Origin: Fragilaria crotonensis
Lineage: Eukaryota > Bacillariophyta > Fragilariophyceae > Fragilariales > Fragilariaceae
Direction: 5' to 3'
Assembly (NCBI GenBank): GCA_022925895.1
Contig: JAKSYS010000611.1
Coordinates: 1 to 37,863 of the forward strand
Length of the DNA: 37,863 nucleotides
Shown: positions 12,480 to 37,378 of the stretch, one piece after another
Layout of the letters: each line of letters begins with the position of its first letter
Position numbering within the stretch: the stretch's first letter is position 1
Translations under genes and position numbers: made by a program
The notes under the pieces: model-generated
Database searches by the model: none
What the model was told of the DNA's origin: nothing
What the model saw: only the letters and a program-made list of their open reading frames with translations

Positions 12480-12561
12480 CGATTATCACCTTCTGGATGC
12501 TACCTGCACAAGGTACTGTTCAGGCGTATAGGTCGAATGTCCCTGGTACGGACATAGCGAT

Positions 12562-15277: not shown

Positions 15278-15308
15278 GCACTTAAACAGAAACCGCAGCT
15301 TTTTATGT

Positions 15309-16392
15309 TCACTTAGCCCTCTTGGACGGGAGCGTCATAGCCTGAATTCGATTCTTCTTTCCTCCCACGTATCGGAACATAAATCCTCTTCGAAAATCAA
15401 TGAAAGTGCTCTTTTCTGTTTCCGTACAAGTGCAATAGTCCAGAGCTTTTTGACATAATGGAATTGCAACAACTTCGTTAGCATCGTAAATGAATCCTCC
15501 ATGAATGGTAACCGCATGATTACTGTTGCCATCAGAAGCAAGAAGCACACCCACGAATACCACAGTCTCGTTCAATTCATTTTTCCAATCGAAATGTCGT
15601 GGCTTCCAGGCTGGCTGTAACCACTTTGGAAGTACCTCCGAGGCGTAGGTCATAACCTTCTTCAATGCATTAACTGTTCCATGGGCCAACTTTTCTTTTC
15701 CATACTCAGCGATCTTCGTAGCTTCATTGACAAATCCCAGCTCGAATAATGCACTAGCAAAGGAATTTGATACGCATAGATCTTCCCCCTCGTTTTGGAC
15801 AAAATGCACTTTTGGAGCGCCTGTTACCGTCAAATCAGGATGTTGGTCCAGTGATGACTTCTTCCAATCTCCAACAGGTATGTCAACGAATCCTGTTCGA
15901 GTCTCTTTAAGTTCGTTCAGAAATTTTGTTGGAAGTACATTATCAAGAAAATCCAAGTCTTTCTTGACTCGTTTTCCGTCGGCGTTTACCACGCTCCAAT
16001 GAGGAGGAACAGTTATATCTTTTCGTGGAACTTCTTTCTTTTTCGGTTTTTGTTTCTGTGGGAGCGTTTGACGGGTAGGTCCTCTTTCTGTGTCTCTCTC
16101 ATCTCTATGACTTTGTCATAATCAAGAATGTTTCGAGTCTGTTCTGGAACAAATTTTACTCGCGTGATTTTCTTGTTCTCCAGAAACACTTCCATATCAG
16201 CTGGAATCGGAAAATACCTCCCATCGGACTCGAGGTTTAGCACATGGTTGATGACATCGTTAGCAAATCCTGCTTCCTTCCTGAACCACTCTTCTGTGAC
16301 TGGGATATGTTTTCCACGTTATCACCCTCGTCGTCCGTGTACTGCACGCGCCACGAATTTGTTTTCGGAACGCACATACTTAACGCCAGTTA
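15309..16392 (-). pseudogene. C-terminal papain-like cysteine peptidase domain of the giant gene
   Basis: The frame 15992-15309 (227 residues) has the signature of a papain-fold thiol enzyme: EDLCVSNSFASAL (candidate nucleophile C73), SDGNSNHAVTIHGGFIYDAN (H159, D170, N172). The Cys, His, Asp/Asn order and spacing fit a peptidase or a transglutaminase-like fold; substrate unknown. I recall similar domains in many diatom repeat-derived proteins. Upstream, frames in 16392-16000 continue the protein through two or three slips: VTGVKYVRSENKFVARAVHG, IPVTEEWFRKEAGFANDVI (about 16300-16245), DGRYFPIPADMEVFLENK and a very basic stretch KRSHRNKNRKRKK. The first of these looks faintly like an AP2-type strand pair, which I do not rely on. 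This is the last domain of the long gene coming from 32.3 kb. TAG at 15317-15315 ends it. Confidence 0.6.
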
Positions 16393-17583
16393 CTAACATA
16401 GCCTCGTCAAAAGGTAATCATTTTCGAATTGTCTACGGAAATGTCGTCTTTCTTTCTTCATTGCCTTGAGCAGTTCTGTGTAGTACAACTTGATGATTTC
16501 CTTCTGACTTGTAGATTTCGCTTCTTCCACACTCGAGGTCATGATCTGGCGATACCACTGCAGGTCCATTTGGTGTTGCTCATTCGAACTCCAGTTCCAT
16601 TCAAGGAACCGCTTTTCAACGTACACATCCATTGCATTTGTGTCAATTGGTCTAACTTCATTGCATTTTTCCCACTTTTCGTAATATGCAACAAGCAATT
16701 CCTGAGCAAACGGAGGCGACTCTTGTTCCAATAAGTTTGCTTGACTTTTCGGTTCCATTTCGAGTACTTCTTGAATTCCGAAAAAATGATTAGGATCACC
16801 ACGTCCGACATCTTTCCAGTTTGCTTCCCACGTATTGAATTCCAGCATATCATCTGTTGGTATTTCTAACCAAGGAAGATCTTCTCGTTTCAGCTTCGTT
16901 TGCTGGAACGATTCATGTGCATTTTGTTGAATGGAATTTGTCAACTCACGTCCACTCAACTTTCTCTTCTTGCTTTTTTTACGATAGCTTTTTTCTTGCT
17001 CGTGCACACTGTCTGATTCGGTAGGAAGTTTAGTTAGCTCCATTTGCCCGTCTTCGTGCATGGGATCATCTGCGTCCTTCGGAAATTGAGATAGCTCCAT
17101 TTGCCTGTGTTCTTGATCGTGCACACTGGCTGTGTCGGGAGCAAAGTGAGATAGCTCGGCATCTGTTGGAAATTGATATAGCTCCATTTGCCCGTCTTCC
17201 TGCACGGGATCATCGGTGTTTGTCGGAAATTGAGAATGTTCTATTTGATCCACAACAGTTTCACCTTGTTGTGGACCGTTGTCCTTGGTTTCTGTACTTT
17301 CTTTTTCATCCGCAAGCTTCACTTCAAGGTCAATGAGGAAATCCATTTCGGATCCATTTCCAACTTCAGGAACTTCATTTTCTCAATTCCTTTTTGGTCC
17401 ACATATTCTTTGTTCGACGATTCTTCATCCTCCGAATCCGACGAATCAGTTGATGGGTCCTCATTTGTTTCTTCACTATGTGTCCCTAGCAGTTCTAAAA
17501 GGGTTGAAGCTGCCCTGTCCTTTTCCCCTTCTTCGTGATGCTGAAAATCATTGTGAGGCCATCTGAGCAAGGCTTTGTTTTTT
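16393..17583 (-). pseudogene. Acidic and tandem-repeat linker of the giant gene
   Basis: Two frames (17570-17319 and 17346-16393) join by a slip near 17380; another slip at a T6 run near 17577-17582 links to the Ulp1-like part. The first contains an acidic run (STDSSDSEDEESSNKEY). The second carries imperfect repeats of QMELxxFPxDA units (QMELYQFPTDA, QMELSQFPKDA, QMELTKLPTES) alternating with acidic VHDQE/MHEDG spacers, mirrored by repeats in the DNA at about 17030-17230. A basic stretch (KKSKKRKLSGRE) could be a nuclear localisation signal. After it come about 150 residues of W-rich, mostly helical sequence (WEANWKDVGRGDPNHFFG, FLEWNWSSNEQHQMDLQWY). No catalytic motif is seen. It probably serves as a flexible linker plus an unidentified helical domain. 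Confidence 0.5.
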
Positions 17584-18072
17584 CGTAGCCAGTTTGATTG
17601 CTGTGCATCTCTTCAGTGGGACGAACTGAAACCCTTCTTGGTATAGTAATCCAATACAATTCTGCAAGTCGATCAAAAAGTACAAAGAATTCCTCCCGCA
17701 GATTTGCCAGGTAACAATCTTTTCTGAATTACCGGTCAATTTATTGTTGTGTAATGTTCTTGGAAAATCGATGAAAAACTCAGGCTTATCGTCTGCTGCC
17801 ACACCCTCAATCTCCTCAATAAATATATTGTAACGAGCAAAGGTTTTGCAGTACCTTTCATCATGCTCATTATTTTTCCCAACAACGTCACGGAGAATTG
17901 TGGCAACTGCAGCAAGAACACCGAACGCACAATTGTGTGTATCTATCTGCTTTGGTAACCAGCGCCGCCCAGTAATCCTCATGGCCGGGAAGTACCGAGT
18001 ACCCCTCAAATAATGTTTTGAAGACGAATGAAAAACTTCGAGCATTTTCATTGGAACATCTTTAAATGAGGG
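17548..18072 (-). pseudogene. Ulp1-like cysteine protease, catalytic Gln/Cys half
   Basis: The frame holds SFKDVPMKMLEVFHSSSKHY, a RYFPAMRITG segment and LPKQIDTHNCAFGVLAA, with Gln and Cys spaced Q-x5-C as in the oxyanion-hole Gln and nucleophile of Ulp1/SENP (C48) proteases. The missing His and Asp lie in 24563-24970; the DIRS-like element sits between them. With 18073-24562 removed, the codons read L-N-L-A-P-S-F-K-D in one frame. Ulp1-type proteases remove SUMO or related modifiers, and transposon-encoded Ulp1 domains are known from CACTA and Mutator elements of plants. The frame continues about 130 residues past Cys (FFIDFPRTLHNNKLTG), then slips into the linker. Confidence 0.65.
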
Positions 18073-18073
18073 G

Positions 18074-18230
18074 GATTAACTAGAGTAGTGTCTTTGTCGA
18101 TTCGAGTTCGTTCGGATTGTGAGCAATTCGTATCTTGTGTTGTGTTGTGTCGTGGTGTTCGTCTGTCTGTGTCTCGTGTTCGTCTGTCTGATGGCGACTG
18201 CCCGTCCTTTCCCGATCTTCGGACATGCCA
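18074..18230 (-). repeat. 3' terminal direct repeat of the DIRS-like element
   Basis: 157 bases, apparently identical to 24406-24562, same orientation. It includes TGTGTTGTGTTGTGTCGTGG and CGTCTGTCTG simple repeats. The identity implies recent insertion or homogenisation. Confidence 0.9.
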
Positions 18231-18594
18231 CGAAATAAATTCCGAGTCTTGTCCAAATTTCTCTAAGTCCGTTTAGTCGGATGAGTCGTCTGCTTCGTGG
18301 TTTCGTCGTACCGTTGTCTCGCACTGTCGCGTCGATTCGTGTGTTGTCTGTGGTCATTCTCGTTTCTCTTTGTGCTCGTGAGACTAGTAGAAATAAATAG
18401 ATGGCATCGGAATCTGGTCCTAATAGTTTTGTCTCTCTCTGGTTCGTCTCGCGGTGTCGGTCCCGTGATAGTTATCTAGCGGGGTCCGTCGCGCGATTGT
18501 GAGTCGACCTGGTTTCCGCCATTTTCCGGTTGTCGTTCGTCCGCAGAATCTGGGGCGATCGTGTAGAAAGATTGTCGACTCGTCATGCGTGCGG
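18231..18594 (-). other. 3' non-coding region of the DIRS-like element
   Basis: Between the recombinase stop and the 3' terminal repeat there is no convincing coding frame on either strand. Canonical split direct repeats would place a B1 copy here, next to the A2 repeat, with B2 at the outer end. I could not find a repeated B segment by eye. Confidence 0.4.
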
Positions 18595-19618
18595 CTACTC
18601 GAGTGTCGAGTCCGGCACTTGAATTCGGAGGTATCTCATGAACGTCTGGCTTCGCCACCCCACCATCTGAATCGTCTCACTTGGAACTCCGGCGAGGTGC
18701 ATGGCCATCGCGGCGCCTGATCTGATCGAGTGAGTGCCGATGCCACTCGCCTGGAGGCCAAGCCTCTCCTCCCTGCGAGTCGTCGCCATCCTGAGCTGCC
18801 TCAGTATGGACTTGGAAGAGATGTGTTGGGGTTCGTCTGAGTCCTGCGTCCTGACGGCGTTAATCTTCGGGTTCGTCCGTGAATGGCAATCGTAACTCCG
18901 TACCCTCGTCGTCAGGTCCGCTAGCACGCGGACGGGGCAGATGTCCGTTTGTCCCTGCCTGTCGTTTCGATGCTGAGTCACTGTCGCGCCTTTGTCCCCG
19001 TTCTTTGTCGCCGGAAGGTGATCGACACGGTGTCGGCATTCTCCAGTTGTCCTCGGTCGGTTGTCTGCAGGTCCTGTCCCTTCTGTCGGAAACGAACGTC
19101 GTCCACTCTGATCACTGATGTCGTCCGTCGGCTTCCGACATCGGAATATTCGCACGACCTCATGGCGAAAAAGAACGCGACCACCACAAGTTGTCCAATA
19201 GCGATGTCCGTCTCGTTTCTTGCCCAGGATCGAACCTTTCGAATCACCTCTAACGGCAGCGCCTGCTGTGGGGTAGGTCCTGGGTCCGTCGGCGTAACGT
19301 TTCAGTTGTAAAGCCAGAAGGGGTCGAGTCGTCCGGCGGCGTCGTGGATTGGGCTCTCAAATTTGTTAAGCCTGAAGGCCTGAGCCACACCGTCGAGGGT
19401 GGCACGAATGGAACCGGACAAGGGTCCATTGCCAGCTTCCTGAGGTTGTCGGGAGCGAAGCCGTCCGTCCCGAAGGGCGGCGGCGAAGCAGGCGAACGTT
19501 CTGCTTTCGCTTCGTCCGAGTCCTTGAGAAAAGGCTCCTCCGACTCCGTCGATTCGTCCGAGGAATCTTTCGTAACAGCGCCAGCTGCTATCGCGCTTGG
19601 CACGGGTTGAGTCGGCAA
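18595..19618 (-). pseudogene. Tyrosine recombinase of the DIRS-like element
   Basis: It integrates the circular cDNA by site-specific recombination. Three overlapping frames form the protein. The N-terminal core-binding part is in frames around 19618-19302 (SGSIRATLDGVAQAFRLNKF). The first catalytic Arg is in FFFAMRSCEYSDV (about 19160). After a slip near 19010-19030 the frame ending at 18595 carries GTHSIRSGAAMAMHLAG (H142 and R145 of that frame), MVGWRSQ (W167) and FMRYLRI (nucleophile Y175, codon 18633-18631). The Arg, His-x2-Arg, Trp, Tyr set is complete. The C-terminus lies shortly after Tyr, as usual. Together with the upstream RT this identifies the DIRS order. The slips probably make it non-functional unless they are sequencing errors. 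Confidence 0.85.
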
Positions 19619-21692
19619 GAGCTGCGTTTGGGCAGCAGCTGCAGCCAGCCTCCAATCTGCGAAATAAGGGCTGGCCGCAAAGGGATGATCCTGAAGTTCT
19701 GTGGAACAAACGGTGAGCAGTTTTTCGTGATCAAGTCTGTCAGTGCCGCGTCGTCTAGAGCGAAATCTCGGGAGAGCATGTCCGCCACCTTGTTCTCTTT
19801 CCTGGGAACCACTGCGTGTAGTGGTCTATCTCGTGCGTGAGGCAGAAATCAGCGAACGCTCGGGCTATCGTCAGGTGAAGCGGACAATCGTCGTTGAAGT
19901 TCGACTTAGCAAGCCATCCCGCTGCTGAGGTGCTGTCTCCTGACTGAGCAGAACGTCTTCGTCCGTCCACGCGGCCCCTTCGTGGAATTCCACGATCATC
20001 CCCACAAAGGCAGCAAGGAACTCGAGAGTGTTTAGGGTCGCTCGCCCCAGCAGGTGCTCTGGTAGCTGATATCGCCACGCCAGGCCGCTCTTGAGGCAGT
20101 AGCCTCCGATGCCTTGTGGGCATGCGTCCACCCTCACTATGCGCGTCGGCCACCGGCAAACCAGCCTGTTGATCGAGATACCTCGCGACGCCTTCTGAAG
20201 GAAAGCCTTCCACAGAATCAGGTCGTCCAGTTGGGGTTTGGTCAGTCTCGCCTTCCCGGCCTGCTTCGAACGCTCGCAGGCCTTGTATAGCCTTCCCATA
20301 AAGTGTCTTGCGTAAGGGATGACGTAGGCGGCGTGGCTAAAACGTCCGAGGGTCGTCTCTAGGTCTCTCGTCGTCACGAAGGCATGTCTGTGCGTCAGCA
20401 TCCTGTCAACGGCTTGCGTCCAGCTCATGTGCTTATCGTGAGGCAGTGCGACGACGAAGCGGCGTGTCCACGATCCATCCGAGGATCATCTTCCTCTCGG
20501 ATGGTTTGGCCTCGGCCAGGAACTTTGGGATCGCAAGGATATCGTCTCTGGGAAAAGTCTCCTTAACCTCGGGGTCGCAAGGCCTCCCGACCAGGTGGAG
20601 CGCCAGCGGATCGCGGCAGCGCTCTTTCTGCGTCGCGGGGTTGAAGGCCCCAAAATGTCGTCCAGGTAGCAGTCGAAGCGAGGGAGGTCGTCGTAGGGTG
20701 GATAGTTCACTGCGAAGTAGTCCGCCTTGCCGAAAACACTCATTTTGTCGACCGACCCTTTGTCATTGTCCACTGCCCCTTCGGTGTCCAGGAGGTGCTG
20801 GTGCGGCGAGTGGTAGACGCTCGGATCCCAGTCGTCCCTGCGGACAAGGTCGTTTGCCAAGTCCGTGATCATCTCCGACACGTCGCTCCATTGCGATGGG
20901 TTTGGCGCTCCACCGAACGTCATCCTCAGCGCCACTAACAGCAGGTCGTCGATACTCGTGCAGGACTTCATGGCTGTGGCTGCTTTGAGATGGATTCGTC
21001 TGTAGGCGGATTTGCAGTCGACCTTCGTCATCCAGATAGGCTCGTCTGGCCATAGTTGGCGCAGGAACGAGATGTGGTACATGAGTCTGCTGAATGCTTT
21101 TCCGAAACGTGCTTCTGTCAGTTGGGATGTGTCCACGCGTTCATTTACGCTTCGTCCTGCCACTCCGCTCGGGCTGAATGACTGGTCATGTGTCAGTCGG
21201 AGTTTCTCTATTGAATTTCCTTTCTCGTCGATCGACGTCTGCGCGACCATCCCCAGAGGCGCGACCTCGCATCCCTTGATCTCTAAGGCGGCTTCGCGGC
21301 AGTGGTAGCTGCCAACCCTTGAGGCTTCGTCCTTCAGCATGGATATCAACTTTGCCTCGTGGCCTCGGGCCGATTTGTGATTGCCGCGAGCTAAGTTGGC
21401 GCGCACGTCCGCGAGGCGGTCAGAATCCGAGATCTCGCGAAGCGGAACTCGGCCCCTTCGGAGATGCGCTCCTGAAAACGCGGCCAGAGGGGTGGGCGGA
21501 CAGGAGCGGGGCGAGAAGTTCGGTGGGGCGAAACTCGGATCCCGGCGTCAGGGCGCTGAACGGCTGGGCCCGAAGGGCGGCGTCGAGGTCGAGGGCGTAC
21601 CGTTTGAGCACCGCGAGGTTGTGGCGGGCGGCGTCGTGCGTCCAGTCGAAGCGAAACTCCGTCGCGTGGGTGCGCGGTTGGCCGGAGTGCAA
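19588..21692 (-). pseudogene. Reverse transcriptase and RNase H of the DIRS-like element
   Basis: The N-terminal part is in the frame 21692-21420 (HDAARHNLAVLKRYALDLDAAL), then a slip enters the frame 21406-20486. There RT motif A is WMTKVDCKSAYRRIHL (D130), motif B RMTFGGAPNPSQWSDV and motif C FDCYLDDILG (D249, D250). The connection after YLDD slips near 20630, and the frame 20428-19871 gives RNase H: RVDACPQGIGGYCL (D101) and NTLEFLAAF (E136). A further frame gives SQGDSTSAAGWLAKSNF (third Asp, about 19940), and another VPRKENKVADMLSRD (fourth Asp, about 19780). The TFGGAPNPSQWS form of motif B is characteristic of DIRS/Ngaro-type RTs and separates it from the two LINE RTs in this window. 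Confidence 0.85.
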
Positions 21693-22049
21693 AATAGTGG
21701 CAAGGGCATCGGCCAGGCGTGGTTCGGGAGTCGGGAACGGCGAGTCGACGTTCGGGAGCGGATCGTCGGCAATGGCACCAACGATGGGAACTTACCGGGA
21801 AGCGGGCGTGGCGTGTCTGCGAGGGCTGATGTCGGCGCGTCGTGGGCGTCTCCGGGCGACAATGCGCGCGCCACGGAGTGGTCGGTCGGTGGCGAGTCGA
21901 GGGCGGGAGCGTAGCGCTCCAGGCCCGACTTCGTTTCGTGACGGGTCGTCGCGGGCTGGCGAGATGCGGGCGTCGGCGACGTGGCGGGGCGAGAAGGTTC
22001 GTGCGCGTGGGTTCCCGCGGGACTGTCTCGGGCGGCAGATTCCGATAAA

Positions 22050-24368
22050 GTCCGGGGCGTCCTACGTGGCGTCTGTTGTGGAACTCGGCCGTCGACCGTT
22101 CCTGGTCGAACGCCCATTGCGACGGCTGTGCGACGAAGGCGGGCTGGAAGTAAGCAGATGCAGAGGGTCCTAATTTTGTTTTCTTGCTGGGCGGCGTCGC
22201 GTCGGACGAGGGGCGGCGCATGCGCGCCCGGCACTGCTCTATCCACGCTCGTACGGCGGTCGTCTGTTCGGTCGTGAGGGCGACGTGCGAGGCGCTCAAG
22301 AAACAGCTCTTGACGCACTTCCCGTTTAGGTGCCACCTGCAGCACATGTTCGGGATCGGTCCACTTCGGACGTGATCGAGGAACACCTGCCAAGTGTCGT
22401 TCGCGTCTCTCGGGAAAGGTCCTGCTGTGGGTTTGTGACTGCGTCCGCGGGTTGCCCGCGACGTCCGGCTCGAGCGCTCCGGCGGCGGCTACAGGCTGCG
22501 AGTCGCCCTTTGGTCGACTCCACGTCCCAGCCGCTCCTTGAGGAAGTCGCAGGCCGGGAAGACAAAGGCGCCGTCCTCCAACTGCTGCCGGGTGGACCTG
22601 ATTTCTAGGAGTGCTGGGTTGATCTCGTCCTCGTGTTCGACTCCAGCGCAGAGAACTAGGTATTGTTGCATGCGTTTTCGATGAACCAACCTAACCTGCA
22701 CGCGGCTGAGGGGTCAGCGTGCGCTAGCTGGCGGAGCGTCGCCAGTGTGGAGCCGACCGCCCTGGTCAGGAAACGGCTCCACTCGTCCAACATGTGTGTG
22801 AGCGGGAATTGGCTCCGAAGGAGCTCCAGCACTCCGCTCATGTTCTCGATAAGCCGCGCGAGTTCGTGAAAATCTTTCGGCACCGTGAAGTTGAGTTTTG
22901 TCATGCTCTTGATGTCCTTCTCCGAGAAGCCCGTGGTCGTGTCGGTCGTCTTGAGTTGCATTTGCACAAGGGTGCTGGCGTGATCAGAGGCTTCTCGCCC
23001 GATCGCTGCTGCTCGGGCGAACGTCTGGGGACCGCAACAGAAGAGGCTGAAGGCCCCTGGCCGGTCAGGTGTGTCGGCCGTGAAAGAAGCGGTGCGGATT
23101 GCGGCGCAGAAGCCCATGGGAATGAACGCGTCTCGACCTTTGGTGTTCCTCAAGAAGTGGTGGATGTGGTTTTGTACGTAGGCCACGTTGCTAAGCGTCA
23201 GGATGTCCGAGAAAGACTGGACCGGGCGGCTGCGAATCATCCTGTCGGCGTCCCTTTCGGACACGAAAAGGACCATTCGTTTCGTCGACGGCGGGAAAGA
23301 GTCAAAGCCTGTCTTCGACGTTTGGGGGGACGAGGTCGCTGCGTTTGCTGCCTGTCGCTCCAGTAACGTTGACAGGTTTCGAATGGCGTCCTCTGTGCGT
23401 CCTGGCGTGCTGGCATGGTCGTCCGTCCGAATGAGGCTCCTAGCTCTGACCGCCAGATGCTTGAGGTGTAGCGATTTCGCCCATTCGTCCGATCGTTTGG
23501 AGTATGCGTTTGATGCCGCCACCCCTCGCTTTGTCGGTCCCGGGGTCCTCCTCGAGTTTACCGCTACGCTGAGGACCCACCGCGGGATGTAAGAGGCTGC
23601 CTCCGCGCGGATGGTTGCTCTGGACGGGTCTGGGTCCTCGCTCGCTCTCTGTTTAATGGCGTTGACGATCAGTAGGGCGAGCTCCTCTGGCGCGGTGACG
23701 TAAGTGTCCATGATGGCGGCTGCGATGAAGGCCGGCACCGGGACGGTGGGCTTCATCGTGAACCCGACGACCGTGACGTCGTCTGTGTCGTCCTCGCTCG
23801 CTTCGACTGGCTTGCTTGGCTTCGCCCGGTGCTTCGTTCCGCTTCCTTTCTTCGGTCGTCCTCTGGTTGCAGTCGGCAGGGTGCCGGCTGGCTCGGCTTC
23901 GCGCGTGGCTCCGGTGCTGACGCCTGACACCTGGGCACGTGTCGTCAGAGATTCATTGATCGCCGCCAGTACGTCCGACGTAGAATTCCACGAGAGCATC
24001 CTCGACCAATCAAAAGGCGTTCCGATGTGTCGCTCTACGACCTGTTTCGTGTCGACCGCCATGGCGGCGGCGAAGCCGCCAGCCCCCATCAGTGCCCAAA
24101 GGGCGTTCGTCCCGTCGTTGAGTCCATCGTCAGCGTCGTGGTGGAAGTGGTGAAAGAGTCGGATGACTCCGTGCGTGTTTACCATAAGGTGGGCGACTTC
24201 CGGAGAGCACAAGTGTACGAATCCTGTAGAATTTGTACTGACCGAGTTCGTCTTCGAATTCAAAGCGCTGAGCTTTTCGACGACCTCCCACTGGTCGAGC
24301 TTCCTGAAAACGTCCAACCACGTCAAGGTCATCGTCATCGGTGAGCGAGCGTCGTCTGACCCCTCCAT
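22050..24368 (-). pseudogene. Gag-like protein of the DIRS-like element
   Basis: An open frame of 570 residues starts at the ATG at 24368, 38 bases inside the 5' terminal repeat, and stops at 22656. It has an acidic linker (VEASEDDTDDVTVVG), basic patches (GRPKKGSGTKHRAKP) and a helical C-terminal half. The reading then continues in other frames through DGAFVFPACDFLKERLG (about 22575-22520) to a zinc motif at about 22350-22290, CCRWHLNGKCVKSCFLSASH, with the C-x3-H-x4-C-x3-C-x5-H pattern I associate with DIRS-type gag proteins. The segment from 22170 to 21700 is arginine/proline-rich in every frame, and I cannot assign its true frame. The role is presumably packaging element RNA. Confidence 0.65.
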
Positions 24369-24405
24369 TGCGTCTGTGGTTCAAGTCGGGTCGGGGGAGA
24401 GGCCA

Positions 24406-24562
24406 GATTAACTAGAGTAGTGTCTTTGTCGATTCGAGTTCGTTCGGATTGTGAGCAATTCGTATCTTGTGTTGTGTTGTGTCGTGGTGTTCGTCTGTCT
24501 GTGTCTCGTGTTCGTCTGTCTGATGGCGACTGCCCGTCCTTTCCCGATCTTCGGACATGCCA
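24406..24562 (-). repeat. 5' terminal direct repeat of the DIRS-like element
   Basis: 157 bases, apparently identical to 18074-18230. It is followed outside by GGCGAG of the interrupted Ulp1-like gene. Confidence 0.9.
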
Positions 24563-24970
24563 GGCGAGATTCAACAGAAACAAAATGCCATGTTTCATTG
24601 GCATATCCCCAGATCCGCTTGGTTCATAAGGACAATAACGCAAAAATGTCGGAACTAAGTTTCGAGATTCAACAGGGGTTTCCGGGCCAAACGTATCAAT
24701 ACAACTCGCATTGAAGATGAAGGTTGCCGTCCAGTGATTTTCTGCGCAGAAGGGAAATACGATCAATTTCTTGGTGAGTATGCATGGGTTTGACCGAAGT
24801 ACTTTTTCGACCACAAAATTCATAGTCTTGTAATGCAATTCTTCCTTTTCGTGAAGCTTCAATGATATTGCAAGCTCTGAACATAGTTTCTGAGTGAGTG
24901 CATCGTGTTCCTTAAGTCGTTCCTTCACGTTACAATATTCTTCCCACTTGGGGTGATCCTCATTTATAGA
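24563..24970 (-). pseudogene. Ulp1-like cysteine protease, His/Asp half
   Basis: The frame that includes the ATG at 24928 extends upstream as INEDHPKWEEYCNVKERLK to about 24970. It carries KKLIVFPFCAENHWTATFIF (catalytic His in HWT, residue 65 from that ATG) and NASCIDTFG (candidate Asp78), followed by RYCPYEPSGSGDMPMKHGI and LLNLA, where the DIRS-like element interrupts it. The HW(T/S) then D order and hydrophobic strands are those of C48/Ulp1 proteases. The rest of the domain, with Gln and Cys, resumes at 18072. Between 25060 and 24970 the frame is lost by stops, so an intron or small indels separate it from the upstream segment. Confidence 0.65.
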
Positions 24971-25059
24971 AAAGTGAAGTCATTCACATTTCCTTTGATG
25001 TGCGAAGGGTAGCACGTTGTGTCTTCAAAAATTGTAATTGCAATCTTGCATTCACATAA

Positions 25060-25404
25060 TCAGTACGCTTCAGAAGCCAATGACACATTCTTTGTATAAC
25101 TGCATGGAATGATGGTAACATGATCATTGTATCGTCCATCAGCCATGATGACAGCAAGCATCATGTCCAATTCACCGAGGCTGATGTAACCAGTTCCATT
25201 CTTCTCGCTATGCTGGATGCGCCGAATGGACAACATCTCGCCACCGACACAAAATGCGTCAGGTGGGCATAAAGGATCCTGGAGGGGGTGTGGTAGCAAG
25301 ACACGGATGTGACTAAGCCCGGATGTCGCCGCAACAAAATCATTGTACAGTAACCTCGTGGTTACATCTCTTTGCTGCTGTGCTGTCGGCGGGTAACGGC
25401 ACCA
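25060..25404 (-). pseudogene. Segment of the giant gene upstream of the Ulp1-like domain
   Basis: The frame leaves the LINE-2 target duplication as ALPVM-WCRYPPTAQQQRD and continues with GTGYISLGELDMMLAVIMADGRYNDH before ending at 25060. The block resembles the N-terminal lobe that precedes the catalytic His in Ulp1-like proteins, but this is a weak assignment. Across the duplication it is in frame with the repeat linker at 30842-31218, which shows that LINE-2 split a continuous coding region. Confidence 0.55.
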
Positions 25405-25420
25405 CATGACAGGCAGAGCA
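25404..25420 (-). repeat. Target-site duplication of LINE-2 (3' side)
   Basis: ACATGACAGGCAGAGCA, identical at 17 of 17 positions to 30825-30841. It directly abuts the A tract (T on the element strand) of LINE-2. Confidence 0.9.
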
Positions 25421-28400
25421 AAAAAAAAAAAACTAGAAATCTAATTAACGTGCTGCCGCTTTGCCCAAGACGAAAAGCAGTCGACTCACACGGATAGGCA
25501 CTGCACTGGGATGTGCAGTAGCTATCGTCGCTGTGATTCCGGGTATTGGATCTACTGTGCGTTGAAATACTCACGGATGGACCTCATACCATTCGTTGCG
25601 CGCTGTTTGACTCGTCTGTAACTTTCCTTAAAGATGGGAGCGTTGATCGATAACCAATTCTTAACAACTCCCAGAGAATGCTGTTCATGGTCTCCCACCT
25701 CCCGGTGCAGTAGTTTTATGCGTTCGCCTCATACATGGAGCGATGACGATAAATCTCGGTTAATTGGGAGCGCACTTCGCGTTTGGATGCTTCTGCTTTG
25801 GTACGTTCATCATGTCCATGAACTTCCAGATTTCGTTGCTTCAGAGGGTGTACCATCTTTCCCAAACGTATAAGATTAAATTTGCCTGCCATGCCGCACT
25901 GCATCCGTCCTTGTCGTCGGCGCCCTGTTGACTCTCGCAATACCGACGCTGATGTTGGCTCCAGGCGGTACTAAATCTCCCAAGAATAATTGACTCCAAC
26001 CAATGTTGTTTTGTTGACATATAATACTACGCAGAGTGGGATGGTATTGTTCCGGTGACAAGGTAATCTCCTTGGTCGTCGAATTTAACCATTGTCGAAG
26101 ACCGTCCATCATCAAGCCGCACAACAGAGGGTGAGTATCGGACCGGATACAGAAATCTCGAATGCCTGTCAGAAATTTATTGCGCCACTCCACTCGGGTT
26201 GTATGTGCACATCGGAGAATGTGAAGATAATCCTCGTTATTCGATCCACAAAGGATGCATTGACGTGTACCTCCATCGAATTTATTTGCTCGCGCATGGG
26301 TGGGCAAAATGCCGTGCAAAGCTTGACGACATGAGTATGAGGAACTGAAGTCCTGTTTATCGCTGTCGCGTGCGCATCCCAATTGATTGATTGAAGAGTT
26401 GATTCAGTCCATGCGTTCTTTTCGCGGATGTAATTGAGTAGGGGTTTAGCGGATGCCTCGTGAAGTAAGACGGATGAATATTTGCCAGTTACTGTTCCAT
26501 CTGGGAGGAGTAAGTGCGCTCGGGCTAAGGGAGACATGAGTACGAACGGGCGTCGAGCTCCATATTCCAGGTTGTACATTCCTGCCTGTGCGTCGGCATC
26601 GACGTTCAGCTGACCGAGAAGATCAAGGTTTTGATAAGACCTTTGCTTGTCCTGGTGCCCTTTGACGTGTCGGAGTTTGACGTGGTAGTCCTTGTAGTGC
26701 GGATTGGATCTCGATTAGAACGTCCCAGTCGGGGCGTAAACAATCGAGCACAACGGTCCCTTCATCGAGGTCCACCGGTTCCTCCTCTTCTTGAGGATCA
26801 ATATCCCCGATCTGCAGGGTATCCAGGACGCTTTGACTATCGGTCGCCAAAATTCCTTTCCACTGTTCCTGCATCCCTGTAAATTCTTTGACCCGAATTA
26901 AGAATCGAAGGAAAGACAGGAGCCCATATGCTTCAGCTCTATATGAGTGCGGTCGTCGTCCTCGTGCCGGGCCCATCCCAAATGCGACTCGTTCATTCGT
27001 GCGCGAGCTTAAAACCCACCCGTAGGATCCATATTGCTCCTTTGTAACAGACCCGTCGCTGACGGCTCTAAAACCGTGAGTTAAGTCGAGACAAAGCGAA
27101 AAGGGTCCACTGTGAGGGAGACTTGACGCAATAGGTCCGTTTCCCATGGTTCAAGTGTGGAAATAAACAAATCGAAGGTAGCTGTCGCTGAAGGAGGTAC
27201 GTGGGGAATCTGGATGATGGTTGCTGGAGTGCCTTTTATGCACCATACTCCGTTTGGTCCCATTTCCACTTCGATTGGTCGCGATCGTTCAGGCAGCTGT
27301 TCGTATCTCCGAAGACCTGACGTGGCTGATGGGCGATACCGGTTGGATCCATTTTGTCTGAAGACTGCGTACGATCCTGTCTCTGTGCGAATGAACATAG
27401 AACGGCGATACTTGTACGCGAAAAATTCGAAACGATGATCTGAAAGGATGAAGCCAGGCTCCGAGAGGTTGCAAAGATGTCCTCGGAGTCGCTCCAGATT
27501 CGATTTGCGGATTGCCATAACTTCCACTCTTTCTCGGACGGGCGATCTTGATTTATGGTGTGCCATCGTGTGCGGCTGCTATACAGCGAGGATGTACCGC
27601 GCAGAAAACATGGGTCGAGCTCCAGTCCGTTTGGTTTCGCTATGTCGGACAATGTGACTGCCTGGAGGTAAAGTCGGCAGTAGTTCAATCTTCTTATTTC
27701 CGAAGGGGAGAATCGATTCGCCTGAAGAATCATATCCATCAAATGCCTGTCCTGTTCGCGCTGCGGCTGTGGGACGCGTGGGTTGTCAAGGTGAAGTGAT
27801 GCTGAGATGGACGCAAGAAAAGTACGAAGACTTCTGATCCATTTCGATTCGAGGTGGGGAAGTGGGACTTCTACTCGTTCGAGAACCGAGAAAGACATTC
27901 CTACAGAGAGATGTAGCCATGCCATCGTGCATTGGAGAAGTTTACCCACTGATGTTTGTGTCCTCCAATGGCGAAGGAAATAGGTGGTTTGTGAGATACC
28001 TTGTTGGACAGTGAGGTGACGAAACTCCGCTCCTCCCAGATCTCTCGGTCCATACAGCACTTCGGATTTTGTGTTGCGATTGAACCCGCATTTTGCAGTG
28101 ATGATTGCCATTGCCCTAGTTTGGATAGCTCTCAATTGGGAATTGGAAAGGAAGGAGGATGTCAACGGGTATGCCACGGCGGGTATGTAACAAGAGCGGT
28201 AATATGTCCACGCTTCCTCGCGAGTAAAGTGAGTCGACCAGAGGAATTCAGTAATTGTATCGCTTTTGTGTTTGAGTTGTCTGAATTGCGTTTTCTGTAA
28301 TCCGCAAGGCTCTTTGTAATGACCGAGAGTCTTATGTGCAACCGATGGTGGAAGATAATCCAAGGTTTGGACCGTGCCCGTGAGAGGGTCGATGATTTGC

Positions 28401-30824
28401 AGTGGTGGTATCTCGGTTTGAATGTTCGAGAGAACCGGTGCTCCTTGAGCCGAAAATTTCCAATACATCACATGGTATGAACATTTGGACAACTCCAGCG
28501 CTCCGCCTGTTGCTTGTAAAAGTGTTGACCATTCGATAGCATTTTGCTTCGCTTTATAAACCATGGCGCGAAGAGTATTGGTGTTTTCTGGTTCAAAGAA
28601 CGAGTTCACTTGGCCGTTACTGTCGTCGACAAAGCCGATCATCGAGACCTTGTTTGGATTTGACCAATCTGGGTTGCAGTATTGAGCTGTCGCTGCCTTC
28701 GATTCATAGCAATCATACAATATACTCGACATGAAACACCATATCATTGGCGAGTTACCGCTCCCTTGGCCTGTGCCATAAATCGGCATTTCGGGAGAAT
28801 GCGAATACGAAGAATCCGACAATCCAAGCTCCGTCCGAACGTGATATTTGGCATTGAGGAGAGTGTTTCCGTTGGATTGAGTTGCGGATTTTGCCACACC
28901 GAATCTGCGACTCGCGATCATTGCCAAATTGGGTATGATACGGTCATAACACGCGCTAGCATCATAGTTGGTTTGAAGAAACATTCGTCTGCTCAGCCGA
29001 GAGATTTCAAACTGCAATTCTTCTATCATGACCGGATCCACGGCGTTTCGTCGTGGTCGCGAACCATATTGGCCGTCATTTAATTGGTTCAATGCCTCGG
29101 ATTGGTACAACGCCACCCTCCACTTGATTCCTAACATGAGATTGAAATCTGCCTCGTATATATGGATGACTCTGGTTCGATGAATCTTGACGCTACCGGG
29201 GTCTTTGAACAGAATTGTATTAGCAATATTTTGCCAGCGACGAAACGAGTATCCTCTTTCCAGTGCATAATTAAGCAACGATAAATGCAAATTTGCTAAG
29301 AATTGTTGCATATAGTCGTATTCTGCTTTGAGAGCAAGTTGTCGTTTGTGTTCCTCTGTTTTCTCGTCGTCTAGCCTTGCAGACGGGTCTAAAGGGGGGA
29401 CATTGGAGTACTTGTGTTTTGCAAACAAGGCTTTGTAATGCCCTAAGTGCATACCCGATGGTGAAGTGGTAGTGGATTCTCTCCATGCTCGGAGTTTTCC
29501 TTGGAATTCTTCAAGGGAAACGGTAGGGTATGTTTGCAGTGAAGCGATCTCGTGCGTTTGCTTTAGGTGTTGAAGCAGCATTCGTACCGACTCCTGATGC
29601 CCGTCCAGTTGGTAGTTCCCGTCGAGTATTAGTTCTGCATTTGGTGAATCCCACAAAACCCAAGTCTTCTGCTAGCGGATCCACGGTAAACGGGGTGCCA
29701 TGTGCTTGTCCGAAATGTTGCCGGTTTCGACGTTGAAGATTTTCCACAATCTCGGAAGGAATATCGATAGTCTGCCAATCAGTGCATGTTTTTGGATCGG
29801 TTGCCGGTGGTCGAGGAATCTCGAGTCTGGTTACACCCTGTCGTTGCCCTTTCTCTTTTGCTGCTTTTATTTTCTCGGTTACTCGCTTCACTTTTTCGTT
29901 CCTTTTTAATCGACGTAACAATGTGGCGTGTTTTTTGTCAGCTTTAAGCATAGATCGATCGAGTTCCTGGATACGTTCATCTCTTTCTTGATCCCGTTGG
30001 CGATAACTGTCCACAACCAGTTTGTCAATCTCGGCCTGCGTTTCCCGGAGTTTCTGTTTGCATTGTTGCATGGAAGTCGGGAGCTGTATATCTAGGTTCC
30101 CGGATGTTATATGTTTCGTTATGATTCGGGAGTGGTCTAATCCGGTACGATGCATAGTCATCCATTTCTTCAATATGACTTTTCGTAAACGAGCTTGACT
30201 TAACGCGACTGACCACGCCGGTTCTCTGAACTGCTTAGTGTTCTTTTCCGCATCCAGGCTAGCTTTCAAAACATCTGAATCGAGACGTTCAGCGAAAGCA
30301 TGTCTGTCGCCTGGCAACGACAATTGATCCGATCGACGTTGAGCGTTCCTCTGCATCAAATAGTCATATTTCAACTTGATATACTGCGTCACTTGCTCAA
30401 TGTTGTTGGATTTTAACGTCCTTTGCGAGTGGGGTGCTAGTTTTTGGGTCATATTTCCAAATAGCTTGTCATTATCCAGATCGAAGTAATAGGCTCGGTG
30501 ATCTGTTGCAAACCGTTCGTTAAACGCTTCGTAACCGCAAGAGAGAAGCGCATTTGCAACTCTTTGGGTAGCAAGTCCATAATCTAAGCACTTTCTCCCC
30601 TGGAATAAGTTGCAGGTGGCTTGTGTTGGTGCCGAGTCTGCATCATGTTAAGAAGGTGAAGTTCAGCAGCTATCTGACTCATACCGTCAATATCCGAACC
30701 AAATACTTCGTTGAAATCGCCCACGAGGATCAGCTCTTCCCCTTGGGAAATTCGTTCCTGCAGAAACTGTCGAAGATCGCGTTTAAATGCTTTGCGAGGA
30801 CTCAACGAATCGTTTGATTGAGTT
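25421..30824 (-). mobile_element. LINE-2: 5'-truncated non-LTR retrotransposon
   Basis: 5.4 kb, - strand. It starts inside the endonuclease domain at 30824, so ORF1 and the first half of the endonuclease are missing, a typical 5' truncation from incomplete reverse transcription. RT, RNase H and the C-terminal knuckle are present. The element ends in a T tract on its own strand (A12 at 25421-25432 on +) preceded by AGCACGTTAATTAGATTTCTAG. Perfect 17-bp duplications flank it. It is related to LINE-1 along the whole of ORF2 (shared HLGHYKAL, GTGQGS-NSP, GFVDD, VSDGS and knuckle), but many substitutions show a different family. The region 25421-25715 holds no gene on either strand and appears to be its 3' UTR plus the decayed end of ORF2. 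Confidence 0.85.
25716..30824 (-). pseudogene. LINE-2 ORF2 remnant: endonuclease, RT, RNase H, zinc knuckle
   Basis: Frames in order: endonuclease tail from 30824 (ELILVGDFNEVFGSD; after a slip near 30600, CLDYG and TDHRAYYFD); a linker frame 30452-29600 with a basic coiled helix (MLKADKKHATLLRRLKRNEK) and FGQAHGTPF; and a long RT frame to about 27300 with HLGHYKALFAKH, motif A NYDASACYDRI (about 28960), motif B GTGQGSGNSPMIW and motif C MIGFVDDSNG (about 28630), then thumb. After slips near 27400 and 27130, RNase H shows VSDGSV, YRAEAYG and ATDSQSVL, then KGHQDK and LNVDADA in other frames. The knuckle CILCGSNNEDYLHILRC (about 26270-26220) has the same C-x2-C-x8-H-x3-C spacing as LINE-1. The RT core from motif A to C is intact in one frame, unlike LINE-1. 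Confidence 0.85.
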
Positions 30825-30841
30825 ACATGACAGGCAGAGCA
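30825..30841 (-). repeat. Target-site duplication of LINE-2 (5' side)
   Basis: ACATGACAGGCAGAGCA, identical to 25404-25420. It contains the Met codon (CAT on +) through which the host reading frame passes. Confidence 0.9.
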
Positions 30842-31218
30842 GTGGCATCACCATCAATACAAACAGCAGCATCAACATCAATAACTGATGTTGAACCTTT
30901 CACTGGCGTCAGAATGGCATCAGGGGCATCAACATCAATAACTGATGTAGAACCTTTCACTGTCGTCACAATGGCATCAGGGGCATCAACATCAATAACA
31001 TCAGCAGGTGGAGCTTCAGTTCCTTTTGATGTTGAAACTTCAAATGTTGCTATAGGAGTCTCGACGTCAATGGAATCTGCATGTTCAGTTTGCACTTTCC
31101 TTGCAGCTTCCAGAGCATCACCGTCTTCTGTCGCTGGTGTGTTTGTGTTCCCTTGGAGACGAGACGATACAGGACATTGTCGAAGGTGGCACAGGTACGG
31201 TAACCATTCTTTTTCCAA
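30842..31218 (-). pseudogene. Giant gene: linker with 19-residue tandem repeats
   Basis: The frame follows the GNAT-like part after a one-base slip near 31200-31235. It opens with KEWLPYLCHLRQCPVSS, goes through a polar region (TPATEDGDALEAARK), and ends in repeats of VIDVDAPDAIxTxVKGSTS, two full units and partial units. The repeat period is 57 bases, visible in the DNA at 30871, 30928 and 30985 (ATCAACATCAATA starts). The repeats run directly into the LINE-2 duplication (ALPVM) and from there, across the insertion, into 25404-25060. Repeat sequences of this kind are usually flexible linkers. No catalytic residues are seen. Confidence 0.55.
30871..31010 (-). repeat. 57-bp in-frame minisatellite
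   Basis: Copies start at about 30871, 30928 and 30985; the third is partial. The first two are nearly identical (GATGTTGAACC versus GATGTAGAACC, GGCGTC versus GTCGTC). The period is divisible by three, so the coding frame is preserved. Confidence 0.8.
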
Positions 31219-32328
31219 GTTAGAGATACCTTGAAAAAAATTTTGGGTGGAGAGTGGACCAAGTTGTTGCGCAGTCCCACTTCGTTGATATCAAGGAAAC
31301 CAATCGATTTGATAAATGCAAATGAGATGGAATCAATTGCATTTACCTGCATGAAAATGTCAATCGTAATTTCACTGTTTTTTGTTGCTGTTTGCGTTTG
31401 CACAGTACGCAGTTCCGTATCCAGCGTTGCTCTCCGATTATCAAAAGCGCACCTTTTGATAATTAACTTCATCAGGAAAGAACCAATTCCTTTTCGACGC
31501 CACGATGAGAATAGGTGTGCGGGGAAGGGTCCCATGTCACGGACACCTAACCATCGAACGAATGCTGTCCCTGGTTTCTCATCATAACAAACACGGAAAG
31601 TCGTTGCTGCCACAACAATTGTATTTTTGTTACGCACAAAAGAATTAGGCAACAGTGATTTTGCCTTTTGCCTGAAAGCAATCAAAGCAATTGTCTGATC
31701 GACTTTCAATCCGTCGGATACGATGACCTGTTGTTCCTCGTTTAGTGAAAATGTCGTACTGTAGAAATTGAATAACATGCGATGCGCCCATTCTTGTAAA
31801 CTCTCGTGCTGCTTTGACGGTGGCAGTTTTTTCTCGCTCGATTGATTAGGTTTGTCCGGTACAGAGCTTGGGTTTAAAAAAATAACATCGTAGCCCCACC
31901 GGAATTGCTTGTTTTCTGGCTGTTTGTGAATAACCTCCAACCAGTTGAGGTCAGTCGTCAATTTTGAAAATACGGAAAGGCGCATTGCTGTCAATGGGGT
32001 TTTGTGGATGTTTGCGTATACATCGTGGCTTTTTTGAGGCGTGGGACTGGTCCCATTTCGCACTTTACATGTATGCTCCCTAAATTCGTCAGCCTCCAAA
32101 TACTGGTACAAATTCTCAAGGTGATCATTTGTACTAAAAATGTCCAAGGGCAATCCTTGATTCGAAATCATAGCTTTGTGCTGCTTCGTCAGCGTTGATT
32201 GAGGAACGGTACCAGCACACAGTTTGTGTGTAGATTCAGCTGAATCTAGTTTCGGTTGCCTATGAACTCCGTGGAGACAATACGATCTTGGTGATCCACT
32301 GGTGAGGCACGACTGGTTCGGAAAGCGC
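31200..32328 (-). pseudogene. Giant gene: GNAT-type acetyltransferase domain
   Basis: The frame contains the ATG at 32171 but is open upstream to about 32328 (YCLHGVHRQPKLDSAEST, in frame). TAATAG ending there may be a splice acceptor, with a candidate 5' splice GTAACA at 32394, so the true start is upstream. GNAT enzymes transfer acetyl from acetyl-CoA to amines. Seen here: a central strand block (IVVAATTFRVCYDE), motif A WRRKGIGSFLMKLIIKRC with R-x2-G-x-G (R225, G228, G230 counted from the 32171 ATG), then a strand TIDIFMQVNAIDSISFAFIKSIGF, which has the expected end of motif B (A/F..x..x..GF). The substrate is unknown; histones or the element's own proteins are guesses. The frame slips at the T7 or A5 run near 31210-31235 into the repeat linker. 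It heads the long - strand gene. Confidence 0.6.
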
Positions 32329-32985
32329 TATTACTGCGCAACCTCGCAGGTGACCAGGTGGAAGCACTTCAGAAAGCGGCAAGGACCCTGTTACCGCTTC
32401 ACAACTAACGATACGAAGCACACAGCTTGAACGGAAGGCGTGATTGTACTATTGATCTGGGGGATCAAGCGGAGGCTTCGGAATTGACGAACAAAAGAGA
32501 TGAACACGCGTTCGTGTGATCGATGAAACGAAGTGTGAAGTGACAAAAACCATTTCGTACTACGGAGCGGTGTATGCATAGCTCGAATTCATGAAACGTA
32601 GAAACCTGGTATATTCGCCAATTAAAAAAATCTGAACTGTCGACTTGCTAAACCGGCGTATGTACTGTTGCAGGACATATGTACATCGTACATCAATGAT
32701 GTCGTATCGTACCATTATCCTAGAAAACATACGGCGACCTATGCTGTTCACAAATATCACGCGCGGCGGCCGGCGGCGGCTGCCTTGGATCTCGCAACTA
32801 GTACAGAATGGTACTGGACCTACTGCTGATTTACGTCGACTCCATGATCACCCTCACTCGTAAAAAAAAGCTCATTTCGGTGTGCTATCGAAGTTCAAGT
32901 TTTTGAAGATATCACGTGTGCATTCTTCAACAAAGGAGAAGGTATCAAACTGCCTTTGCGGTGATCGTTGTCGTTTAAATTTGAT
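32329..32985. other. Non-coding region between the divergent giant gene and SANT-like gene
   Basis: No gene-like frame is seen except a possible short upstream exon of the giant gene near 32395-32440 on the - strand (SSCVLRIVSCEA). The stretch includes a GC-rich patch (GCGCGGCGGCCGGCGGCGG at 32761-32779) and short palindromes around 32678-32715 (ACATATGTACATCGTACATCAATGATG). It should contain the promoters of both divergent genes. I see no TATA box that I would defend. Confidence 0.3.
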
Positions 32986-34633
32986 AATGCCACCAAAGGA
33001 GAAGCTTGCTAGAGGGAGAGGTTCTGCCTTCAACACAGACGAGTTGACTTTTTTATTGACGAATGTCGAAAAGGTAATTCCTGCAGGCATAACTGGGTGG
33101 GACACCATTGAGAGATTGCACAAGGAGCAGTACCCGGCTAGGAACAGCGAAGCGTTGAAGAGAAAGTTCGAAGCATTGCACAAGAGCGATGTTCCAGCAG
33201 ATGAAAACAATGTGATGTACACACACATCATAAGGGCAAAAGCAGCGCGAAACCTCATTGTTGATGCGTTGAGGGCGGAGGAGGTCAATGGAAGCATCAA
33301 AATAAAAGAAGCTGGAGATGGTACAGAACGGAAGTTGGTAAAAAAGGACGTCTCCTCTGACGTGAATGCCGACAGCAAGGCGGAGTTTAAAAAACAAAAT
33401 AAATCACTGGCAGATGACGGGAAAAAAACAGAGGCAAATGAAAATCATTCTTCAAACAATGTCAAGAAAAAGGAGGGAGCGCGTCCATTCCAAAACGACG
33501 AAATTAAATGCCTCTTGCAGCTCGTGGCAGGCGCTTTACCAGTGAGGTTAAACGATTGGGATGCCATTCACAATGCATATAGACAGAGCTATGGTTACAG
33601 GACGAGGGGAAGCTCTGAAGAGGAAGTTCACATCTTTGCTACGAACACCCGTTCCAGAAGGCGCAAGTAATCCAAACTGCGTGGTGGCAAGACAATTAAA
33701 CGACAAAATCAAAGAAAAAAGAATGAAGAACACCATCGAAAAGGCTGCCTCAGAAAAAGCTAGAAAACACAATGCAGTGGCTGCCAAAACCAACGCAGGT
33801 TCCAAACTTCATAAGGGTGCGAGGAAGAAGGATAACAAGAAAGACCAAGACAAAGAAAATGACGGAGATGATGACATGGTGGACAATGGGAAGGAAAACC
33901 AGGAAGAAAACGAAGAAGAAGAGGGGGAAGACGACAAGGACGACGACGAGGATGACAAGGAGCATGACGACGAGGAAGAAGTGGGGACGACGACGACGAG
34001 GACGACGACGAGGACGCGAGGATGACGACGAGGATGACGCACGAGGACGCAGCGAGACGAGGATGACGGCGACGAGGACGACGAGGACGAGCGAGGGCAA
34101 GGGGACGAGGCGAGGACGAGGATGCGGCGACGAGGACAAGGACGAGGATGACGCGACGAGGACGAGGACGAGGTTGACGACGACGAGGAAAGAAGTGGAA
34201 AAGGGTTGCGAAGACTTCACAAAAAGTGAGAAGAGCGCAGGACTATGAGGTACGAAGGACGGGACGGAAGTTTGGTTTGGTTCGCAAGAAGAAGACGGCA
34301 GAGGTGCAACAAATGAAAAATGAACATGTATTGTTGTTGAAAGAACAGACACACAAGCTGCTTCAACATAAAAGAAAATTGGAAAAGGAAATCGGCAGCG
34401 TAAAGGCAAAAAAAATGAAAGTAGGTAAGGTGATCGGAATCAAAAAGCAAAAGGAAGATAAGCTTGCTATGGTGCTTGGCGAGTTAGTAGACATCCACAA
34501 ATTATTGCTGAAAGAGCGGAAGATTGAGAAACGGGTGAGAAAAATGGAATTGAAAATACAGTCCGAGTGCATGCTGTCGTTTATGAATTGGATGCAAGCA
34601 ATGCTAGAGAGAAATGAAACAAAAAGAAAATAA
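32986..34633 (+). pseudogene. SANT/Myb-like two-repeat protein with acidic tract, frameshifted
   Basis: The likely start is the ATG at 32986 (MPPKEKLARGRG). The first repeat, residues about 12-95, reads FNTDELTFLLTNVEKVIP, GWDTIERLHKEQYP and NSEALKRKFEALHK. The second, about 33480-33700, repeats the pattern: FQNDEIKCLLQLVAGALP, DWDAIHNAYRQSYG, then after a one-base slip in GGGG near 33605, EALKRKFTSLLRTPVPEG. Spaced W/L/F residues and the basic K-R-K-F third helix resemble SANT/Myb-like (DUF6818-like) domains, which bind DNA or chromatin. An acidic, repeat-encoded tract follows (from 33880), in which the frame changes at least twice. The last 135 residues (to 34633) form a lysine-rich coiled coil (LLLKEQTHKLLQHKRKLEKE). 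A chromatin role is inferred. Single base indels may be real decay or sequencing error. Confidence 0.6.
33912..34194 (+). repeat. GAC/GAGGAC acidic-codon minisatellite
   Basis: About 280 bases made almost only of GAC, GAG, GAT and ACGAGG units. In one frame it encodes Asp/Glu; in the others Arg/Thr or Thr/Arg. Indels in the tract move the D/E frame to another phase (33912-33990 versus about 34020-34170). Repeat slippage is the obvious cause. Confidence 0.8.
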
Positions 34634-37370: not shown

Positions 37371-37378
37371 CAGAAACA

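Follow-up and report, generated by a model that had tools for sequence, protein, structure and literature searches.

Transposons that carry accessory modifier genes are known from plants and fungi. The plant KI-MULE (KAONASHI) and CACTA-ULP elements carry a Ulp1 domain, which in KI-MULE points the opposite way from the transposase (PMC2528002, accessible part). In fungi, PlavakaB elements end in CATCA..TGATG with duplications of 2 or 3 bp, and some of their families carry a TET/JBP gene (PMC12730594, accessible part). Here we analyzed a stretch of 37,863 nucleotides from the diatom Fragilaria crotonensis (contig JAKSYS010000611.1; hereafter the window), most of which is one copy of a Plavaka-like DNA transposon with a gene, convergent with the transposase, that is predicted to fuse a GNAT acetyltransferase domain, a Ulp1-like domain and a papain-like domain. 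It is this three-domain fusion that is unusual, and we found no such fusion in a transposon in the openly licensed literature. The locus shares with the plant elements an element-borne Ulp1-type domain, and with KI-MULE its reverse orientation. It differs in that those elements belong to other transposase families, that the accessible part of their description reports no GNAT or papain-like part, and that the Ulp1-like domain of the present family has diverged and has a Cys at the Asp position.

We evaluated the layout of the fusion gene by comparison with copies (C220, C449 and so on) elsewhere in the same genome (62.1 Mb in 881 contigs). In C449, a single open reading frame (ORF) of 1,414 amino acids (aa) holds the GNAT domain, the Ulp1-like domain and the linker module; GNAT and Ulp1-like domains also share one ORF in C2 (1,077 aa) and C872 (1,145 aa), and the linker module and papain-like domain do so in C686 (567 aa), C220 (494 aa) and C140 (496 aa). 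The DNA of C449 and C686 is 99.2% identical over 3,742 bp, the 1,414-aa ORF of the former overlaps the 567-aa ORF of the latter by 223 aa at 99.6% identity, and the papain-like ORF of C449 equals the remainder of the C686 ORF over 338 aa. Since these overlapping ORFs are near-identical, the frame of the subfamily runs through, with 1,682 residues from the preceding stop or ~1,640 from the first Met (residue 44). As judged by these frames, the C449/C686 subfamily has one gene, in which the GNAT and Ulp1-like domains are followed by an acidic linker, then by a conserved module and last by the papain-like domain.

An earlier note on this DNA, made from its letters alone, had described the same order on the minus strand (GNAT, repeat, Ulp1-like, acidic/QMEL repeats and a Cys-His-Asp ORF), which stands, and had joined the parts by removing inserts, which does not yield a single frame in the window. 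There, the GNAT domain and the repeat linker are in different frames, as are the linker and the papain-like ORF; the Ulp1-like domain is spread over ORF pieces at 25060-25440, 24335-24979 and 17548-18075, and the acidic/QMEL-repeat ORF lies at 16393-17382 on the minus strand. With three retroelements and these frame changes, the window copy is dead. Window pieces that are split by inserts and lie in different frames are what one would see if several separate genes stood in a row on this strand by happenstance. However, the overlapping open frames of the 99%-identical sisters C449 and C686 span the length unbroken and rule this out, and in C872, C449 and C2 a single ORF contains both the GNAT and the Ulp1-like domain; we regard separate genes as next to impossible and keep the single fusion that the note had preferred.

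The fusion gene converges on the transposase, and the 31-bp gap that the note gave between them agrees with the ORF coordinates (transposase ORF end at 15277). In protein searches of the genome, the papain-like ORF has 99 matches, the GNAT ORF 62, the C-terminal Ulp1-like piece 58 and the C-terminal transposase ORF at least 131, the last being a lower bound with 95 of 331 candidates scored. The papain-like matches cluster into 72 copies, the window included and C264 counted twice owing to its own insert. A convergent transposase is found at the 3' side of 58 of these copies; the Ulp1-like part lies upstream of the papain-like domain and on its strand in 58, and the GNAT domain does so in 44, while one copy has a nearby GNAT match on the wrong strand. 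All three partners are present in 37 copies, at least one in 66, and none in six, among them the distant relatives C312, C317 and C687. Viewed from the transposase, 58 of 77 clusters among the matches listed have an opposite-strand papain-like gene within 8 kb, and 15 of the 19 listed clusters without one are at most 42% identical to the window transposase. Relative to the other parts, the 99 matches keep a constant order, strand and spacing, and the arrangement is therefore beyond chance: a chance adjacency of fusion gene and transposase is ruled out by the repeated linkage. The earlier claim of a transposon accessory gene, for which unlinked parts were looked for in this genome, is thus borne out in 58 of 72 copies.

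The same convergent pairing suggests that the two proteins cooperate, and the fusion protein might then de-tag or acetylate its own transposase, allowing it to escape degradation or activating it, with no role in host chromatin. Adjacency inside an element is, however, expected of any accessory gene, and action on host proteins fits equally well; we consider such a transposase guard rather unlikely.

The identity of the N-terminal domain as a GNAT acetyltransferase is well supported by sequence comparison. R/QxxGxG/A is the acetyl-CoA motif of GNAT proteins, and a RRxGxG motif, which we take to be motif A, followed by a FYxxxGF block, characterizes the family here; it is present in 10 of 11 aligned rows, two of which are near-identical copies, and C314 departs from it. 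Pfam Acetyltransf_10 matches 8 of the 11 members at E≤1 (best 1.6e-5), whereas for the window member the only matches are weak ones to other GNAT families, and both it and C872 score below the Pfam cut-off. Compared with solved structures, the GNAT profile finds Naa50 closest, at 2.9e-5 over 55 positions; the likeness is limited to this core, with element-specific sequence on both sides.

The Ulp1-like identity is weaker than that of the GNAT domain. Its resemblance to peptidase C48 (Ulp1/SENP) consists of His, Gln and Cys in order, in the context HW ... LPxQxDxxNC: the HW His, like the Gln and Cys of LPxQ...NC, is conserved in all 10 rows that cover it, with a Gln-to-Cys spacing two longer in C449. 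At E≤1, Peptidase_C48 matches 3 of 13 members, and hhalign against the own-genome C48 matches gives P 0.0024 (probability 12%), compared with 0.35 and 0.49 for two control alignments. The earlier note had placed His, Asp, Gln and Cys; three of these hold, but the Asp that the window does have (IDTFG) lacks conservation in the alignment, and the Ulp1 Asp position is a Cys (RYC) in 10/10 covering rows, as equated by eye with the Asp of the own-genome C48 match L003 (PCILFLDSL). A profile alignment with the own-genome C48 matches leaves the Asp stretch as a gap. Also telling against a Ulp1 assignment, the best Peptidase_C48 score is under the cut-off (0.0073; 16.6 bits against 20.7), and none of the 44 genome Peptidase_C48 matches falls on a copy of the fusion gene. 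A PDB profile search with the Ulp1-like alignment gave no sensible match. The Cys in place of the Asp is a catalytic question in itself.

Separately, beside the C80 copy, plus-strand ORFs in L074 (5666-8843) contain NDIDCGLF and CSC..CRHG motifs, which we take to be C48-like and SWIM-like, respectively; these ORFs resemble a MULE-type element that has a Ulp1 domain of its own.

The identity of the C-terminal domain rests on its predicted catalytic residues. Papain-type peptidases have Gln, Cys, His and Asp/Asn in this order, and we named the domain papain-like because these residues are invariant in the same order: Q107, C114, H200, D211 and N213 of the window ORF are unchanged in 8/8 rows, including two relatives only 30 and 34% identical, in keeping with the Cys-His-Asp ORF of the earlier note. 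No sensible Pfam family or PDB sequence match was obtained for the domain, nor any sensible PDB profile match for the linker-module alignment. Viral contigs scanned with the papain-like alignment gave 69 pattern matches and no relative. Pfam matches to Alpha-2-MRAP_N, Pox_A6, NIF and 7TM_GPCR_Srx are below cut-off and were taken as chance.

Two peptidase-like domains whose catalytic residues run in opposite orders along a single polypeptide, with long low-complexity linkers between the parts, would also suit a self-processing polyprotein, in which the peptidases cut at the linkers and free the GNAT domain and other pieces, as in viral polyproteins. The Ulp1-like domain lacks the usual Asp, which speaks against this, and we judge self-processing to be unlikely.

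To evaluate selection, we determined the ratio of nonsynonymous to synonymous substitution rates (dN/dS) among the 16 most alike pairs per alignment, with pairs at dS 1.1-2.4 as the main range. There, all three named domains show purifying selection: dN/dS is 0.143-0.201 for GNAT, 0.100-0.132 for the Ulp1-like domain and 0.080-0.103 for the papain-like domain, although the pairs are in effect one split, C872/C140 versus C106/C131 and near copies, which limits the weight of these values. Recent pairs are higher, at 0.22-0.34 (GNAT and Ulp1-like) and 0.11-0.86 (papain-like), the upper value being C701 versus C258 at a dS of 0.009. The window versus C839 papain-like pair, at 0.67, is likewise unfavorable; part of this value stems from a different frame at the start of the C839 row. 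We infer that the protein was probably kept working between copying bursts, while the window copy is dead.

These values bear on the possibility that the Ulp1-like domain, and perhaps the papain-like domain, is inactive and only binds ubiquitin-like proteins, leaving GNAT as the working enzyme. Such a binding scaffold would accord with the Cys at the Asp position in every covering row and with GNAT being the strongest match. It is at odds with the conservation of His, Gln and Cys in the Ulp1-like domain and of Gln, Cys, His and Asp/Asn in the papain-like domain, and with a dN/dS of ~0.1 between two subfamilies; we find it very unlikely.

The linkers contain short motifs that hint at the cellular setting. 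Motifs resembling a SUMO-interaction motif (SIM), defined strictly as hydrophobic-[VI]-D-[VLI]-[STDE], occur 12 times in 2,097 linker residues from six copies; the mean in shuffles is 0.72, and 0 of 3,000 shuffles reach the observed count (10 versus 0.61 when the window repeat is counted once). The 19-residue repeat of the window (57 bp, 2.3 copies, 30869-30999) forms three such units. The folded parts have none in 4,157 residues (0.59 expected), and of 17 scanned ORFs, 9 contain one or more, including two from near-identical copies. In the second linker, C872, C106 and the window have a KKRK stretch, C449 has KRK and C258 has none. KKRK-type stretches match the nuclear-entry consensus, which suggests that the protein may enter the nucleus.

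Based on these observations, we propose, at about even confidence for and against, that the fusion protein is an accessory enzyme whose targets are ubiquitin-like and acetyl marks. The protein would enter the nucleus and strip ubiquitin-like modifiers, SUMO being the best candidate, from proteins at the element, which may be silencing factors, chromatin or the transposase itself, and the GNAT domain would acetylate the same targets. This action would parallel that of fungal Plavaka elements carrying a TET/JBP dioxygenase, as far as the accessible part of their description goes, and the analogy with transposon-borne TET/JBP and Ulp1 genes makes the counter-silencing role that the earlier note had suggested plausible. 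A more specific version is directed at SUMO: (i) the SIM-like motifs of the linkers would dock on SUMO-marked chromatin, (ii) a Ulp1-type peptidase whose acid position is taken by a non-canonical Cys, together with a papain-type one, would strip the marks, and (iii) GNAT would acetylate SUMO or the freed lysines and so block the return of the marks. We consider this version improbable. No such erase-and-block activity for a mobile element was found in the openly licensed literature.

Several points weigh against the proposal. Among the copies read, none has an open frame from end to end; some of the frame breaks could be assembly errors. A convergent transposase match is missing from 14 of the 72 copies and a GNAT match from 28. 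The definition of the strict SIM-like motif was settled after the sequences had been inspected, related copies share some of its sites, and its absence from 15 other ORFs means little when only ~1 was expected by shuffle. With a loose SIM definition, taken from the accessible part of PMC12751080 with a flank rule added by us, seven copies have 15 motifs against 9.2 expected, a count attained in 71 of 2,000 shuffles. Of four transposase ORFs, one exceeds expectation as well (5 versus 1.8, p 0.035). Because the loose definition gave no convincing excess, SUMO binding by the linkers is kept as a lead only, and the choice of SUMO over another ubiquitin-like protein is a guess.

The element that carries the gene is delimited by terminal inverted repeats (TIRs) and by its copies. 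The TIRs are 20 bp long, identical at 18/20 positions between the ends, begin with CATCTAAG and are flanked by TA on either side, a 2-bp duplication at 2585-2586 and 37554-37555. The TIR pattern, allowing two mismatches or fewer, has 29 matches in the genome and 0 for a reversed control. In DNA searches, the right arm is 96-98% identical in five copies (C839, C733, C408, C220 and C264, the last matching over its first 1.5 kb only) and the left arm 97-98% identical in six (the same five and C570); left-arm matches start at 2583-2587, and 4 of the 5 right-arm matches stop at 37554-37555. An empty site is seen where another repeat family runs unbroken across the insertion point, e.g. C754:8383-9124. 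Uninterrupted elements of ~13.7 kb bracketed by TIRs are found at C220:6833-20593, C408:4-13704 and C839:3780-17491, with lengths by TIR positions of 13,761, 13,701 and 13,712 bp, and 2-bp duplications, TA (C220) and GA (C839), each lie in different surroundings. The window element is, on this sequence evidence, a Plavaka-like DNA transposon and one member of a dispersed ~13.7-kb family.

The Plavaka assignment comes from the transposase. The Plavaka domain (PF18759) matches the C140 transposase ORF at 1.8e-13 (50.8 bits, cut-off 26.3) and the window piece at 3.3e-4, below cut-off, and two C449 transposase ORFs have no Plavaka match at E≤1. In Plavaka transposases, a C(2)C motif followed by H(3-4)H lies after the second catalytic D and before the last E (PMC12730594, accessible part). 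The C140 ORF has HCRAC and later HELLH in that order, which may correspond to these motifs, and is the only one of five ORFs scanned with both, the other four being partial. By its position, the N-terminal transposase part in the window is the counterpart of the N-terminal ORF in L069. Set beside PlavakaB as described in the accessible part of that source, the family here shares the transposase domain (above the Pfam cut-off in its C140 relative) and, with some PlavakaB families, the presence of an accessory enzyme gene; its duplications are 2 bp, against 2 or 3. It differs in its termini, where CATCT..AGATG resembles CATCA..TGATG apart from the fifth base, in its host, a diatom instead of a fungus, and in its accessory gene, a GNAT/Ulp1-like/papain-like fusion instead of TET/JBP.

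Three retroelements are nested in the window copy (Table 1). Two of them, one long interspersed nuclear element (LINE)-type and one DIRS-like, interrupt the minus-strand gene, and the two retroelements that the earlier note had removed are thus real inserts: LINE-B is flanked by identical 17-bp duplications (25404-25420 = 30825-30841), and the DIRS-like element carries direct repeats of 157 bp that match exactly (18074-18230 and 24406-24562). In C220, C733, C839, C408 and C264 the flanks of both are continuous, except for ~26 bp at the DIRS-like site, and the long aligned pieces of these copies are 97-100% identical, mostly >99%. The third insert, additional to the note's two, is LINE-A, which splits the transposase, leaves an 11-bp duplication (3255-3265 = 12599-12609) and has an endonuclease recognized by Pfam (Exo_endo_phos, 7.8e-10); bases 12576-12609 of the transposase ORF belong to LINE-A and its duplication. 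The DIRS-like element seems to have replaced ~26-27 bp of its target, and a ~73% identical relative, L017 (C264:19566-22922), is inserted in the papain-like part of the C264 fusion gene. LINE-A and LINE-B are on opposite strands, and their 3' ends are a T run on the coding strand (window 12584-12593 and 25420-25432), not poly-A.

Table 1. Positions of the transposon, its genes and its nested insertions in the window
Feature	Position	Strand	Remark
Plavaka-like DNA transposon, whole copy	2587..37553	.	96-98% identical copies stop at ends; TIR
Left TIR, CATCTAAGAGTGCAGATCCG	2587..2606	+	
Transposase ORF, N-terminal part, zinc-finger-like start by eye	2797..3265	+	cut off by LINE-A
LINE-A in transposase	3266..12609	+	Exo_endo_phos endonuclease by Pfam; reverse transcriptase and RNase H by eye
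Remaining Plavaka-like transposase gene	12576..15277	+	ORFs 12576-13547 and 13946-15277
Papain-like domain, C-terminal part of fusion gene	15309..16115	-	
Linker with QMEL repeats and KKRK stretch, then conserved module	16016..17382	-	internal frame changes
Ulp1-like C-terminal half, Gln and Cys of LPKQIDTHNC	17548..18072	-	
DIRS-like retroelement in Ulp1-like part	~18073..24561	-	class by eye from ORFs
Ulp1-like N-terminal half, His of HW, FLRYCP at Ulp1 Asp site	24562..24979	-	
Stretch between GNAT and Ulp1-like core	25060..25420	-	
LINE-B between GNAT and Ulp1-like parts	25421..30841	-	class by eye from ORFs
19-residue repeat linker, three VIDVDA units	30825..31290	-	
GNAT domain, RRxGxG motif, N-terminal part of fusion gene	31050..32327	-	
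Divergent right-arm gene	32864..34633	+	weak DUF6818 match, long acidic repeat
Right TIR, CATCTAAGGGTGCAAATCCG	37534..37553	-	

The right-arm gene in Table 1 diverges from the fusion gene and lies inside the right-arm stretch common to the 96-98% identical copies. Outside the transposon, 1-2586 and 37554-37863 belong to another dispersed repeat family that hosts it and has ORFs with no clear Pfam match. Three further stretches, C95:21650-26610, C446:34869-40288 and C181:29493-41397, are bounded by the same TIRs with 1-2 mismatches, match the first residues of the GNAT ORF and have no papain-like match within; they are perhaps non-autonomous derivatives of the element. Elsewhere in the genome, the silicon transporter family has 19 matches, 18 over cut-off (best 4e-193), against one of 14 control genomes matched, under cut-off, which makes a diatom host very likely; at G000:C97:29749-33762, one 1,456-aa open frame holds three tandem silicon-transporter units.

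Transposons with their own mark-modifying enzymes, such as TET/JBP in fungi and Ulp1 in plants, are signs of conflict with silencing. If our proposal is correct, protein acetylation and ubiquitin-like marks would be part of that conflict in stramenopiles, and the fusion, kept in dozens of copies, offers a defined protein for testing.

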